Shown: positions 704 to 40,937 of the stretch, in pieces | Layout: each line of letters opens with the position of its first letter | Position numbering within the stretch: the first letter of the stretch is position 1 | Notes under the pieces: generated by a model | What the model saw: the letters and a program-made list of their open reading frames with translations, nothing else | What the model was told of the DNA's origin: nothing | Database searches by the model: none | NCBI GenBank assembly: GCA_027311065.1 | Contig: DAICZP010000018.1 | Span: forward strand, 1 to 44,489 | Reading direction: 5' to 3' | From: Thiomonas sp. | GTDB taxonomy: Bacteria > Pseudomonadota > Gammaproteobacteria > Burkholderiales > Burkholderiaceae_C | DNA length: 44,489 nucleotides | Made by a program: the position numbers and the translations under genes

Positions 704-828
704 GTGATCGGGGATCGTCAGAGAGGTTGCAAGCCGTCGAAGCATAGCGCGCACGCATGACCGGCGTGCCGTGGGCGACAATATCCCATTGCGCCTCGCA
801 CTCGCGCGGCGACACCCGATTGCACGCC

Positions 829-1854
829 ATGTTCAGATTCTTCAAACGCAAGTCTTCCGCGCCAGACCCGCAACCGGACCTGGAAAGCGTTGCGGCGACT
901 CCCGCGGGGGTCGTACCCGATGCCGCCCCCGCGCAGCCCGATGCGCCAACCGGTTGGTTCGCGCGGTTGCGGCACGGACTGCGCAAGACAGGGGCCGGCA
1001 TTTCCGGATTGTTTGGAGGCGGCAGCGTCGACGAAACCCTGTTCGAAGAACTTGAATCGGCGCTGATCATGGCGGACGCCGGCATGCCGGCCACCCGCCA
1101 CGTCCTCGACACACTGCGGCGCGCTGTGCGCGCCAGCGGGGCGCAAACGCCGCAGGAGGTGAAATCCCTGCTGCGTGACGTCCTCGCAACCTTGCTCGCG
1201 CCCCTGGAAAAGACGTTGGACATCGGGCGCTCGACCCCGACGGTGATCATGATGGTGGGGGTCAATGGCGCTGGCAAGACGACCGGCATCGGCAAGCTCA
1301 CGCGCCATCTTCAACACGCGGGCTGCCAGGTCCTGCTCGCGGCGGGGGATACGTTTCGCGCCGCCGCGCGTGAACAGCTCGCGGCCTGGGGGGAGCGCAA
1401 TGCCGTGCAGGTCATCTCGCAGCAGGGCGGGGACCCGGCGGCGGTTGCGTTCGACGCCGTCAGCGCCGGCCGCGCGCGTGGTGCCGATGTCGTCATTATC
1501 GACACGGCGGGGCGCCTTCCCACGCAGCTGCATCTCATGGAGGAGCTGCGCAAAGTCAAGCGGGTGCTTGGCAAGGCCATGGAGGGTGCGCCGCACGAGG
1601 CGCTGCTGGTGATCGACGCGACCAATGGCCAGAATGCCCTGGCGCAGTTACGGGCGTTCGATGATGCCATCGGACTGACCGGCATCATCCTGACCAAGCT
1701 CGACGGCAGCGCCAAGGGTGGGGTGATCGCGGCCATCGCCCGGGAGCGCCCGGTGCCGATCTATTTCATCGGCGTCGGCGAATCGCTCGAAGACCTCCAG
1801 ACCTTCGATGCGCGGGCGTTCGCGCGGGCGCTGGTGGACGAAGAGGCAGTATGA
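829..1854 (+). CDS. ftsY: Signal recognition particle receptor FtsY
   Basis: FtsY is the membrane-associated GTPase that docks ribosome-SRP complexes at the Sec translocon. The 341-residue protein starts MFRFFKRK, has a short low-complexity acidic/Pro-Ala N-terminal region, then the NG domain. Visible motifs are the G1 loop GVNGAGKTTGIGKL, DTAGR, and TKLDGSAKGG. The A domain is much shorter than in E. coli FtsY (497 residues). ATG 829 was chosen because the upstream in-frame residues (to 757) do not look like FtsY. The stop overlaps the next gene's start by four bases (ATGA, 1851-1854), suggesting coupled translation. Confidence 0.96.
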   Translation: MFRFFKRKSSAPDPQPDLESVAATPAGVVPDAAPAQPDAPTGWFARLRHGLRKTGAGISGLFGGGSVDETLFEELESALIMADAGMPATRHVLDTLRRAVRASGAQTPQEVKSLLRDVLATLLAPLEKTLDIGRSTPTVIMMVGVNGAGKTTGIGKLTRHLQHAGCQVLLAAGDTFRAAAREQLAAWGERNAVQVISQQGGDPAAVAFDAVSAGRARGADVVIIDTAGRLPTQLHLMEELRKVKRVLGKAMEGAPHEALLVIDATNGQNALAQLRAFDDAIGLTGIILTKLDGSAKGGVIAAIARERPVPIYFIGVGESLEDLQTFDARAFARALVDEEAV

Positions 1855-2579
1855 GCGAACGTCCTCCCGCGCCCGATGCGCAGCCGGTGGGCGCTGCCCT
1901 GCCGCACTGGCGCCCACCGCCGCGTCCGGCCCACGCACCAATGCGCGGACGTTACGCCGTGCTGGAGCCGCTGCGGGGCACGCATGGGGCATCACTTTGG
2001 CGGGCGTTTGCGCGCGACACTGACGGATCGACGTGGACGTACCTTCCAGACGGCCCCTTCCGCGAGCCTGGTGCATTCGCCGCACTGGTTGATGCACGCG
2101 TGGCGTCGGCCGATCCGATGTTTTTCGCCGTGCTGCGTGACGGCCAGGCCTGTGGCATGGCCAGTTTCCTGCGTATCGATCCGCGCAATGGTTGCGTCGA
2201 AATCGGTCACCTGGCGTTCGCCCCGGAACTGCAGCGCACCCCCGCCGCGACCGAGGCCCTGCATCTGATGCTGGCGCACGTGTTCGCGATTGGCTACCGA
2301 CGGGTGGAGTGGAAATGCAATGCCCTGAACGCACCGTCGCGCCGCGCCGCCGTGCGCCTGGGTTTTACCTACGAGGGGACGTTCAGGCAGGCGGCAGTCG
2401 TGAAGGGGCACAACCGCGATACGTCCTGGTACGCAATGCTCGATCACGAATGGCCCGCGCGCCAGGCGGCACAGCGCCAGTGGCTCGCGCCTGCGAACTT
2501 CGGTCCGGATGGCGCACAAGTCCTGGCGCTGAGCGCGCTGACCGCGCTGAGCGCTGGCGGCGAGGGCATCCTCCCCTAG
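1851..2579 (+). CDS. GNAT-family N-acetyltransferase, RimJ/RimL type
   Basis: The 242-residue protein has a GNAT fold like the RimJ/RimL group that acetylates protein N-termini or small molecules. The central region reads as in that group: GQACGMASFLRIDPRNG, then the EIGHLAFAPELQRTPAATEA segment that forms the acetyl-CoA pocket, and VEWKCNALNAPSRRAAVRLGF near the C-terminus. The substrate cannot be told from sequence. Residues 1-35 are Pro/Ala-rich and probably unstructured, and the last ~25 residues (LALSALTALSAGG) are a low-complexity tail. The ATG lies within the ftsY stop, so the two are likely translated together. Confidence 0.85.
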   Translation: MSERPPAPDAQPVGAALPHWRPPPRPAHAPMRGRYAVLEPLRGTHGASLWRAFARDTDGSTWTYLPDGPFREPGAFAALVDARVASADPMFFAVLRDGQACGMASFLRIDPRNGCVEIGHLAFAPELQRTPAATEALHLMLAHVFAIGYRRVEWKCNALNAPSRRAAVRLGFTYEGTFRQAAVVKGHNRDTSWYAMLDHEWPARQAAQRQWLAPANFGPDGAQVLALSALTALSAGGEGILP

Positions 2580-2623
2580 GAAATGCTGTTTTGTTGCGCC
2601 AGCGCAGGGAACTTTTCCGGGGC

Positions 2624-2650
2624 TTAGCACTCTCATGACCTGAGTGCTAA
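2624..2650. promoter_or_regulatory. CIRCE operator (HrcA binding site) upstream of rpoH
   Basis: The sequence is TTAGCACTC, nine bases, GAGTGCTAA. This matches the CIRCE inverted repeat, TTAGCACTC-N9-GAGTGCTAA, in all 18 arm positions. CIRCE is bound by the heat-shock repressor HrcA, whose folding depends on GroEL. It lies 30 bases before the rpoH start codon, so rpoH itself appears to be under HrcA control. The site is seen directly; regulation is inferred from the known role of CIRCE. Confidence 0.95.
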
Positions 2651-2653
2651 AAT
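2624..2653 (+). promoter_or_regulatory. Putative sigma-70 promoter of rpoH embedded in CIRCE
   Basis: TTAGCA (2624-2629, four of six matches to TTGACA) and TAAAAT (2648-2653, five of six to TATAAT) are separated by 18 bases. The -35 hexamer is the start of the left CIRCE arm and the -10 hexamer overlaps the end of the right arm. HrcA bound here would cover both promoter elements. Transcription would start near 2660, giving a leader of about 20 bases before the AAGGAGG ribosome binding site at 2665-2671. The hexamers are seen; promoter activity is inferred. Confidence 0.6.
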
Positions 2654-2680
2654 GTGTCATGGATAAGGAGGAGTACGCAC

Positions 2681-3592
2681 ATGCTTGAAGGTGTTCTCAC
2701 CCTGCAAGGCGCTGATACCCAGGACGCCTACGCGGTTGGTTTTCCGTCCCAGGTGCCAAGCCTCGGGAATCTGGAGTCCTACATCGCTGCCGTGAATCGC
2801 ATGCCCATGCTCAGCAATGAGGAAGAGCGCCATCTCGCCCATGCCTGGCGTGAGCGCCAGGACCGCGACGCGGCGGGGAAACTCGTGCTCTCGCATCTGC
2901 GCGTGGTGGTGTCGGTGGCGCGCCGTTATCTCGGCTATGGGCTTCCGCATGCCGACCTGATCCAGGAAGGCAACATCGGGTTGATGAAGGCGGTGCGCCG
3001 GTTTGATCCCGGGCAGGGCGTGCGCCTGGTGAGCTACGCGCTGCACTGGATCAAGGCCGAGATCCACGAGTACATTCTCCGCAATTGGCGCCTGGTCAAG
3101 GTCGCGACCACCAAGGCGCAGCGAAAATTGTTCTTCAATCTGCGTTCGATGAAGCAGGAGTTCGACGGCTTCCACGATGCCGAAATCGATGCCGTCGCGC
3201 GTGAGCTCAATGTCAAGCGCACCGATGTGATCGAGATGGAGCAGCGCATGACCGGCGCTGATGTGTCGATGCAGCCGGTTGGCGACGATGGTGGCGAGTC
3301 ATTCGGGCCTGGCGCGTATCTGTCGGACCGTGGTGACGAGCCCGACGCGGTGCTCGAGGCGCGCGGGCGTGAGCAGCTGCAGACGCACGGCCTGGCGCAG
3401 GCTCTCGAGGGGCTTGATGCGCGCAGCCGCAGCATCGTCGAGCAGCGTTGGCTGGCGGTTGCCGATGACGGCAGTGGCGGCAAGACCCTGCACGAGCTGG
3501 CAGCGGAATATGGGGTGTCGGCCGAGCGTATCCGGCAGATCGAAGTCGCCGCCATGAAGAAGATGCGCAAAGCGCTCGCTGCCTACGCCTGA
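2681..3592 (+). CDS. rpoH: Heat-shock sigma factor RpoH (sigma-32)
   Basis: RpoH directs RNA polymerase to chaperone and protease promoters. The 303-residue protein has sigma region 1.2/2 (LGNLESYIAAVNRMPMLSNEEE; LRVVVSVARRYLGYGLPHADLIQEGNIGLMKAVRRFDP), the RpoH box (QRKLFFNLRSMKQ) that is diagnostic for sigma-32 against other sigma factors, and region 4 with the helix-turn-helix (LHELAAEYGVSAERIRQIE). ATG 2681 is preferred because a strong AAGGAGG lies 9 bases before it; the upstream in-frame codons to 2654 fall in the promoter. The gene has its own CIRCE/promoter and a strong terminator (3605-3633), so it looks like a single-gene transcript. Confidence 0.97.
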   Translation: MLEGVLTLQGADTQDAYAVGFPSQVPSLGNLESYIAAVNRMPMLSNEEERHLAHAWRERQDRDAAGKLVLSHLRVVVSVARRYLGYGLPHADLIQEGNIGLMKAVRRFDPGQGVRLVSYALHWIKAEIHEYILRNWRLVKVATTKAQRKLFFNLRSMKQEFDGFHDAEIDAVARELNVKRTDVIEMEQRMTGADVSMQPVGDDGGESFGPGAYLSDRGDEPDAVLEARGREQLQTHGLAQALEGLDARSRSIVEQRWLAVADDGSGGKTLHELAAEYGVSAERIRQIEVAAMKKMRKALAAYA

Positions 3593-39046: not shown

Positions 39047-39955
39047 ATGCGATTTCCCGCGCTGCTGCTCCTGCTCACCGTCTCGCTGGCCGCTTGCACC
39101 AACGTGCCGCTGAACCAGGCGCCCGTGGAACGCGGTGGCTTCACGCCCGCCACGCACCCCGGTGCCGGCGCTGCCCCCACCGGGGGGGCGCTGGCGGCGC
39201 ACGCCGGCGAGCCGGGTTATTACACGGTCAAGCCCGGTGACACACTGCTGCGCATCGCCTTGCAGGCTGGCCAGAGCTGGCATGCGCTGGTGCGCTGGAA
39301 TGCATTGGCCAATCCGAACGTCATCGAGGTGGGACAGGTCCTGCGCGTGGCGCCTCCCGACGCGGCGAACCCGCCGCCGCTGCCGCCTGGCAGCGGTGCA
39401 CAAGCGTTTGCCGTGGCGCCGGCGCCGGGCCTTGCGGCGGTGCCAGCCACGCCTGCGGCGGCGTCATCTCCGAACGCTGCTGCTTCCAGCCCCGTGCGAA
39501 ATGTTGCCAAAGTGCGCTCGCCAGCAGTGGTTGCACCGCCGCCAGCGCGCGCGCCCGTCATCAAGTCGGGTCCGGTGGTGGCCGATGCCGATCTGCGTTG
39601 GGGGTGGCCGGCGCAAGGCAAGATTCTGCAAGGTTTCAACGGGACGAGCAGCAAGGGCCTGGACATTGCCGGACGCGCTTCGGATCCCGTGTTGTGCGCT
39701 GCGGCAGGGCGTGTGGTCTATGCAGGCAATGAATTGCGAGGCTTTGGCAATCTTGTGATTGTCAAGCACAACGCCGATTACATTTCGGTTTATGCGCACA
39801 ATGAAAAGCTGTTGGTGAAAGATGGCGATGACGTCAAGAAGGGCCAGAAGATCGCCCTGATGGGTTCGACGGATGCGCCGCACGTGGAGCTGCATTTCGA
39901 GGTGCGCTTGCGAGGCAAGCCGATTGATCCGATGCAGGTCCTCCCCCCGCGTTGA
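39047..39955 (+). CDS. nlpD: Lipoprotein NlpD, amidase activator
   Basis: NlpD is an outer-membrane lipoprotein that activates the amidase AmiC in daughter-cell separation. The 302-residue protein has a lipoprotein signal with lipobox LAAC, a LysM domain ([28 protein letters not shown]), an Ala/Pro linker (~105-180), and a C-terminal LytM/M23 domain ([58 protein letters not shown]). The HxxxD zinc pair of active M23 enzymes is not intact (SSKGLD), as in NlpD generally, so it should not be a hydrolase. rpoS follows after 22 bases. Confidence 0.95.
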
Positions 39956-39977
39956 GCTTCCAGCACTGGACCTACCG

Positions 39978-40937
39978 ATGTCGCGCGACTCCGATGCTTC
40001 CCGAACCGAGCCCGATGACGAAGCGCACGATGGTGAGTGGCCTGCCGCGGCTGATCCCGCAGCCTCGCGCGACGTTGCGATTGGCGCGGATGGCGTCGAT
40101 GCCGCCAGCCAAAGCGTGCTTCAGGCCTACCTGAACCAGATTCGCGGCAAGCCGCTGCTGACACCACAACAAGAGTTTGAAACGGCAACCCGCGCTCGCC
40201 ACGGTGACTTCGCCGCTCGGCAGGCGATGGTCGAGCACAACCTCAGGCTGGTGGTCAGTATCGCCAAAGGCTATTCCGGTCGTGGCGTGGCACTGGCGGA
40301 TTTGATCGAAGAAGGAAACCTCGGTCTGATGCACGCCATCGAGAAGTTCGAGCCCGAGCGCGGGTTCCGGTTCTCGACCTACGCGAGCTGGTGGATTCGC
40401 CAGAACGTCGAGCGCGCCATCATGCAGCAGGCGCGCACCATCCGGCTCCCGGTGCAGGTGATTCGCGAACTTAACCAGGTGCTGCGCGCGAAGCGCCACC
40501 TCGAGGAGTCGAATCCCACCGGGGTGGCGTCGCTGGAGGATATCGGCGCGTTGACCGGGCGAAGTGGCGACGAAGTACAGGACTTGCTGACCCTCTGTGA
40601 AATTCCCGCGTCGCTCGACCTTACCCGCGAAACCAGCGGGGGGGACAGTTACAGCGACCAATTTGCCGACGAGCAGGCGCCGGGCCCGGACGAGGCCGCC
40701 GAGGTTGAGGAGATCGGGCACTTGCTCGACATTTGGCTCAAGGCCCTCGGGGAGCGCGAACGGGAAGTCATCGAGGCGAGGTTCGGGCTGTACGGGCGCG
40801 ATGCCGAAACCCTCGAGACCGTGGCGCGACGCCTGGACCTGACGCGCGAGCGTGTTCGCCAGATCCAGCAAGAGGCCTTGCTCAAGCTCAAGCGCCGGCT
40901 GACGCGCAGCGGTGTCGATAAATCATCGGTGCTTTGA
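39978..40937 (+). CDS. rpoS: Stationary-phase sigma factor RpoS
   Basis: RpoS directs the general stress response. The 319-residue protein has sigma region 1.2 ([26 protein letters not shown]), region 2 ([64 protein letters not shown]), region 3 and region 4 ([32 protein letters not shown]). The acidic N-terminal region is short compared with RpoD, which has the much longer 1.1. ATG 39978 is used; the frame opens inside nlpD. The nlpD coding region may hold an additional rpoS promoter, as in E. coli. Confidence 0.96.

Follow-up and report, generated by a model that had tools for sequence, protein, structure and literature searches.

The window, by which we mean the whole stretch of DNA analysed here (44,489 nucleotides), belongs to a Thiomonas sp. 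genome of 2,758,368 bases in 143 contigs that is 91.93% complete, and carries near its beginning a gene for the heat-shock sigma factor sigma-32 (Table 1). The score of this gene against its family model confirms that the gene placed under HrcA control by an earlier reading of the same DNA (the sequence-only reading) is rpoH. The remaining RpoH matches in the source genome show 26-31% identity; one, inside the window, scores as rpoS, and at 39047-40937 an nlpD-like gene (recognized by eye) is followed by a sigma-factor gene of the rpoS type (TIGR02394, 380.2 bits with a cut-off of 378.7). The interval between ftsY and rpoH is occupied by a GNAT acetyltransferase gene (1851-2579), in place of the ftsE and ftsX genes of E. 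coli K-12. The genome also encodes the regulators relevant to the analysis below. The sequence-only reading had made its prediction depend on the presence of hrcA, and this gene was found as a single copy (TIGR00331, 300.4 bits with a cut-off of 197.2; PF01628). A gene for RpoE is present as well (TIGR02939, 272.4 bits with a cut-off of 236.15), adjoined by an rseA-type gene with an RseA_N domain.

Table 1. Features of the rpoH region of the window, with predicted regulatory elements.
Feature	Position	Strand	Basis or remark
ftsY (context)	757..1854	+	TIGR00064, 328.7 bits
GNAT acetyltransferase gene, directly 5' of the rpoH switch (context, outside the switch)	1851..2579	+	PF13302 and PF00583, above cut-offs
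Sigma-E-type -35, GGAACTT	2608..2614	+	sequence, motif score
CIRCE (HrcA operator, predicted)	2624..2650	.	left arm 2624-2632, loop 2633-2641, right arm 2642-2650
Sigma-70 -35-like hexamer TTAGCA, within the CIRCE left arm	2624..2629	+	promoter scan
Sigma-E-type -10, TCTCA	2631..2635	+	end of the left arm (two bases) and start of the loop (three bases); N16 spacer to the -35
Extended -10 TGCTAAAAT	2645..2653	+	promoter scan; TG 2645-2646, hexamer TAAAAT 2648-2653
Ribosome-binding site AAGGAGG	2665..2671	+	sequence
rpoH (sigma-32, 303 aa)	2681..3592	+	TIGR02392, 396.5 bits with a cut-off of 323.1; ATG 2681

The predicted operator upstream of rpoH reads TTAGCACTC-TCATGACCT-GAGTGCTAA and agrees with CIRCE at 18 of 18 arm positions (0 mismatches), as the sequence-only reading had stated; it is a 9-N9-9 inverted repeat of the form TTAGCACTC-N9-GAGTGCTAA. 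A chance match is ruled out by the count in 100 shuffles (mean 0.01, largest 1). Within 3 mismatches the window holds no other CIRCE, and a search of the source genome at the same tolerance gave one second site and no further one. This second site lies upstream of groESL, where the sequence-only reading had suggested looking for it. The end of the operator is separated from the rpoH start codon by 30 bases, and the whole switch is compact: the operator and two likely promoters fit into about 46 bases.

The first of these promoters is of the sigma-70 type. A scan of 2400-2800 returned a single sigma-70-like site, TTAGCA-N18-TAAAAT, with 9/12 matching positions and a TG preceding the -10 (mean of 0.1 sites in shuffles), which is the pair of hexamers 18 bases apart that had been proposed before. 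The hexamer TTAGCA alone is weak evidence, since it belongs to the CIRCE consensus and is identical to TTGACA at only 4/6 positions; the case for the putative promoter rests on the extended -10. The proposal that CIRCE contains this promoter holds for the overlap of the two elements but not for full containment, since the -10 bases 2651-2653 fall outside the operator.

To place the site in a wider context, rpoH loci were compared in three sets of relatives. The named relatives found by RpoH are mostly members of Burkholderiales genera (the nearest one found, L008, with 81% identity in RpoH), and from these genus names we take the order sampled to be Burkholderiales and the class to be Gammaproteobacteria in the GTDB sense. 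In the order, 200 genomes from 50 families were searched; 197 of these genomes have rpoH, and 100 loci representing 39 families were taken among the matches listed; families f8, f11, f19, f26, f38, f40, f41, f44 and f47 (weaker RpoH matches) as well as f30 and f45 (no RpoH match) lie outside this sample. The class search gave rpoH in 130/140 genomes, two of them from the source family, and 40 of the others, weighted to the top ranks and coming from 40 other families, were taken. A CIRCE was present at rpoH in 79/80 loci of the named set within 2 mismatches, the remaining locus (L042) being unjudgeable as its contig starts 12 bases before the RpoH match. It was likewise present in 96/100 order loci within 5 mismatches (none in 41 loci, a single one in 36), including at least one locus in each of the 39 sampled families, and in 35/40 class loci within 4 mismatches. 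The overlap of operator and promoter, which the sequence-only reading had singled out as the point of interest, is not special to this DNA and is the usual state in the sampled relatives; the arrangement is old and common and no oddity of the source genome, because most of it is shared by related genomes. L013, L070 and L071 each contain, somewhere in the locus, a further CIRCE-like match with up to 5 mismatches.

The occurrence of the operator closely follows that of its cognate repressor gene, which was sought in 120 genomes (80 of the 100 from the order, and all 40 from the class). Where hrcA is present, CIRCE is found at rpoH within 4 mismatches in 110/112 genomes (75/75 order, 35/37 class); where it is absent, in 0/8 (0/5 order, 0/3 class). 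The Fisher p-value is 5e-11, although this and the other p-values given here are guides only, because the sampled genomes share descent. One of the two hrcA-bearing exceptions (G295) has a CIRCE-like repeat at rpoH with an 8-base loop and 3 mismatches; in the other (G261, the genome of locus L284) no CIRCE was found at rpoH, which makes it the single clear exception among the 112. Retention of the site with hrcA and its absence without it argue that HrcA binding at rpoH is under selection. As far as a comparison of genomes goes, the HrcA control of rpoH proposed by the sequence-only reading is thus supported by the presence of hrcA, by the groESL CIRCE and by this distribution.

The same distribution bears on the possibility that CIRCE is present but minor, with rpoH being set mainly after transcription, as it is in E. 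coli, and HrcA repression being slight at most. Predicted folding of the 5' portion of rpoH is no better than that of shuffles (z of 0.21 for 2660-2900 and of 0.82 for 2642-2780), and such values near zero neither show nor exclude a temperature-labile structure masking the translation start, the E. coli-type thermosensor that the sequence-only reading had set against HrcA control. Some encouragement for a minor role comes from a rhizobial case, where, in the part of PMC3989490 dealing with it, a CIRCE consensus was insufficient to ensure strong heat induction. On the other hand, a site of little consequence would hardly be expected to be retained and lost with hrcA in the way described above, which implies selection for HrcA binding, and we regard a minor role as rather improbable.

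The groESL operators of the order genomes allowed us to separate the contributions of operator and promoter to the conserved sequence. A groES match was obtained in 60 of 61 genomes searched, and each of these 60 was taken; CIRCE lies at groESL in 55 of them, and the five without it are the same five that have no hrcA. The operator at groESL is the same as that at rpoH and is absent from the same hrcA-less genomes, but its right arm is not fused to a -10. This difference was quantified in 55 genomes of 37 families with both CIRCE sites. Position +29, which completes the -10, is a T at 54/55 rpoH sites versus 5/55 groESL sites (p 5e-24), and the dinucleotide A28-T29 is found at 46/55 versus 5/55. 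The first base of the -10 (position 24) is T in 55/55 rpoH sites; 7/55 groESL sites have C there. We therefore rejected the -10 as a mere by-product of the CIRCE consensus, and likewise as a flank required by HrcA, given that the completing T is missing from the groESL operators of these genomes. A variant form was seen in two loci of family f12 (L126 and L127), where the right arm AAGTGCTAA is followed by AGT, giving a fused -10 of TAAAGT.

Genomes without hrcA bear on the same question. In 5/8 of them (L107, L161, L169, L189 and, from the class, G320) the extended -10 TGNTANNAT persists in the 200 bases preceding the rpoH match, with CIRCE gone; shuffles give 0.71 on average, with a maximum of 4 in 1000. 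The best CIRCE-arm matches in these genomes have 5 to 8 mismatches of 18 (loops of 7-11 allowed). They are not above chance, since shuffles of the region upstream of E. coli rpoH give the same 5 to 8 mismatches in 195/200 cases, and visible remnants of the arms were for this reason rejected. L169 is perhaps an exception, its arm match having 5 mismatches, a loop of 9 and the same place; upstream of rpoH this locus also retains GGAACTT-N16-TCATA. In L151 (hrcA-less genome G114) a palindrome CAGGCACTC-N7-AAGTGCCTG, preceded by a TGAACTT -35 recognized by eye, stands at the usual place of CIRCE upstream of rpoH, and may represent a changed or decaying operator. Overall, a -10 that is kept at rpoH and not at groESL, and that survives as TGNTANNAT without hrcA where the arms can no longer be told from chance, leads us to conclude that operator and promoter appear to be under separate selection despite the bases they have in common.

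The single-promoter account given by the sequence-only reading stands as regards the -10 fused to the right arm, which is borne out by conservation, but it is incomplete, as a sigma-E-type promoter running through the operator had been overlooked. For scoring we used GGAACTT, a spacer of 15-17 bases and TCNNA, which we take to be the sigma-E consensus. The window motif GGAACTT-N16-TCTCA (2608-2635) attains 10/10 on this scale. Among the 96 order loci with CIRCE, a score of at least 8 is reached by 71 (shuffled flanks: mean 2.1, maximum 7) and of at least 9 by 54 (mean 0.2, maximum 2), and a score of 10 occurs in shuffled flanks at most once in 96 loci. When the scored stretches were moved 60-180 bases upstream, 1 or 2 motifs were obtained at score 8. 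With one locus per family the motif is found in 31/39 on average versus 0.73 when shuffled. It extends to the other families of the class sample (31/35 versus 0.69 shuffled, maximum 5; 26 in the register of the window). At the groESL CIRCE sites, in contrast, it is found in 1/55.

The sigma-E -10 starts at +7 of CIRCE, as in the window, in 51 loci of 29 families, the commonest register; other starts are +9 (9 loci of 6 families) and +11 (5 loci, all of one family and unlike the window), and in 6 loci the -10 is placed upstream of CIRCE. The -35 is in register with the loop: a good pair is kept in 48/53 loci, whereas 1000 swaps of loops averaged 37 and never exceeded 44.

RpoE is absent from 8/80 order genomes (TIGR02939, E at most 1e-30; these are the 80 used for the hrcA test). 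Leaving out 4 genomes without CIRCE (76/80 remaining), the motif at a score of at least 8 accompanies CIRCE in 52/69 genomes with RpoE versus 0/7 without it (p 1.6e-4), and at score 9 in 36/69 versus 0/7 (p 0.012). In the class sample RpoE is absent from 2/40 genomes, both of them without CIRCE. Other counts speak against a sigma-E input: the motif is missing at 17/69 RpoE-bearing loci, only 46/79 loci of the named set reach a score of at least 8, and the five same-family loci use the register +11, which is not that of the window. In 4/39 families (f7, f9, f12 and f17) no motif attains score 8; those of f12 include the above-mentioned L126 and L127, where RpoE is present.

An alternative is that the sigma-70 promoter alone is under HrcA/CIRCE control, as the sequence-only reading proposed, the sigma-E-like motif of the window being a relic or a chance match and sigma-E being uninvolved. 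In its favour, L008, the nearest relative found, has CIRCE and TAAAAT with no sigma-E motif, and a genome-wide search of the source genome with the strict motif proved unproductive as a way to a sigma-E regulon, with 5 sites versus 11 in the reversed control and hence no enrichment; two of the four strict-motif sites besides rpoH (L294 and L296) have no obvious envelope-stress gene by eye. This explanation would, however, leave the perfect score of the window motif in the commonest register to an event nearly unmatched in shuffled flanks; it also has to contend with the rpoE gene and its rseA-type neighbour in the source genome and with the lack of the motif in every testable RpoE-less genome. 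We consider it unlikely, if still deserving of some weight.

We therefore favour, with reasonable though not full confidence, a three-input node at rpoH, in which one HrcA operator would occlude both a sigma-70 and a sigma-E promoter. This reading of the sequences builds on elements that are directly observed, as are their conservation, their geometry and their presence or loss together with hrcA and rpoE; from these we infer HrcA binding, the two start sites, occlusion and GroEL titration at rpoH. HrcA is kept active by free GroEL, and titration of GroEL by damaged protein inactivates it. HrcA bound to the CIRCE at 2624-2650 would cover the -35 and most of the -10 of the sigma-70 promoter together with the -10 of the sigma-E promoter. 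Once damaged protein occupies GroEL, HrcA would be released and both rpoH promoters would open. Polymerase with sigma-70 would then produce rpoH mRNA from a predicted start near 2660 with a leader of about 20 nt, and polymerase with sigma-E would add to it under envelope stress from a predicted start near 2642 with a leader of about 39 nt. The resulting sigma-32 would act on groESL, and the increase in GroEL would restore repression by HrcA. Such a return path is suggested by the hexamer CTTGAA, an element as in sigma-32 promoters, which lies within 45 bases upstream of CIRCE at 43/55 groESL versus 5/96 rpoH sites, so that sigma-32 could feed groESL and GroEL could restore HrcA.

The predicted starts also bear on the idea that CIRCE acts at the RNA level, by forming a hairpin in the leader of rpoH, rather than as a DNA operator. 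Judging from gene order, read-through from the upstream acetyltransferase gene would indeed transcribe CIRCE. However, the predicted sigma-70 start lies after CIRCE, a transcript from the sigma-E start would have the right arm only, and the site vanishes with hrcA, which is not required of a hairpin. We rejected an RNA hairpin as the main role of CIRCE on these grounds and attach hardly any probability to it.

A broader evolutionary reading, which we put forward tentatively and with somewhat less than even confidence, would make the rpoH upstream region of the ancestor of beta- and gamma-proteobacteria one fused element, with a single HrcA operator gating a housekeeping and an envelope-stress promoter in the manner of an AND gate. 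Taken as a whole, this reading would imply that free GroEL decides if sigma-E may raise sigma-32 at all, and that the CIRCE loop, usually taken as a free spacer, encodes the sigma-E -10. It would further imply that lineages losing hrcA kept the promoters and lost the operator, the E. coli promoter P3 being such a survivor, with post-transcriptional control as the replacement. In E. coli K-12, TGAACTT-N16-TCTGA is found at a distance of 120 bases from the rpoH ATG, on its upstream side; we take this site to be P3, and it has the same N16 sigma-E spacing as the window. Unlike the window, E. coli has no CIRCE: its best arm match has 7/18 mismatches, the level of shuffles, and we rejected it as a visible CIRCE remnant, the identical spacing being the feature from which we would infer descent.

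The interest of the case lies in a three-way element that is conserved and that is lost along with hrcA or rpoE. The common view of heat-shock control is drawn from E. coli, in which rpoH is governed mainly after transcription. In the sampled relatives, by contrast, this master sigma factor would be subject to a repressor that senses GroEL and whose operator has bases in common with two promoters. If this is true, the loss of a master regulator's wiring could be followed through a natural series of genomes, namely those that have hrcA, those that lack it and those that lack rpoE.

Parts of this arrangement have counterparts in known systems, although among the open-access papers listed in literature searches none was seen to unite HrcA, sigma-E and rpoH in a single element. 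The closest likeness on the operator side is Geobacter sulfurreducens, where a CIRCE at -51 from the rpoH translation start was predicted and hrcA is in the genome (PMC545781). Unlike here, that CIRCE is a prediction only, and an arm-fused -10 and a sigma-E promoter through the operator do not form part of the account, as far as its relevant sections go. The same paper cites a survey of beta-, gamma- and epsilon-proteobacteria (Permina and Gelfand 2003), in which a CIRCE at rpoH of beta-proteobacteria may already be described. A table in PMC3135505 gives no HrcA for Neisseria gonorrhoeae and N. meningitidis. On the sigma-E side, SigE of Bordetella bronchiseptica transcribes fam, the rpoH homologue, in vitro, according to the portion of PMC3490749 describing it. 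In that case the main text leaves operator overlap untreated and HrcA unmentioned, but a sigma-E-type promoter likewise lies just upstream of a beta-proteobacterial rpoH. Finally, in Burkholderia pseudomallei RpoE is reported to control an rpoH promoter that is induced by heat (Vanaporn 2008, as cited in passages of PMC5994319 and PMC5552950); while CIRCE goes unmentioned in these citing passages, they describe in a related genus the same sigma-E input to rpoH.
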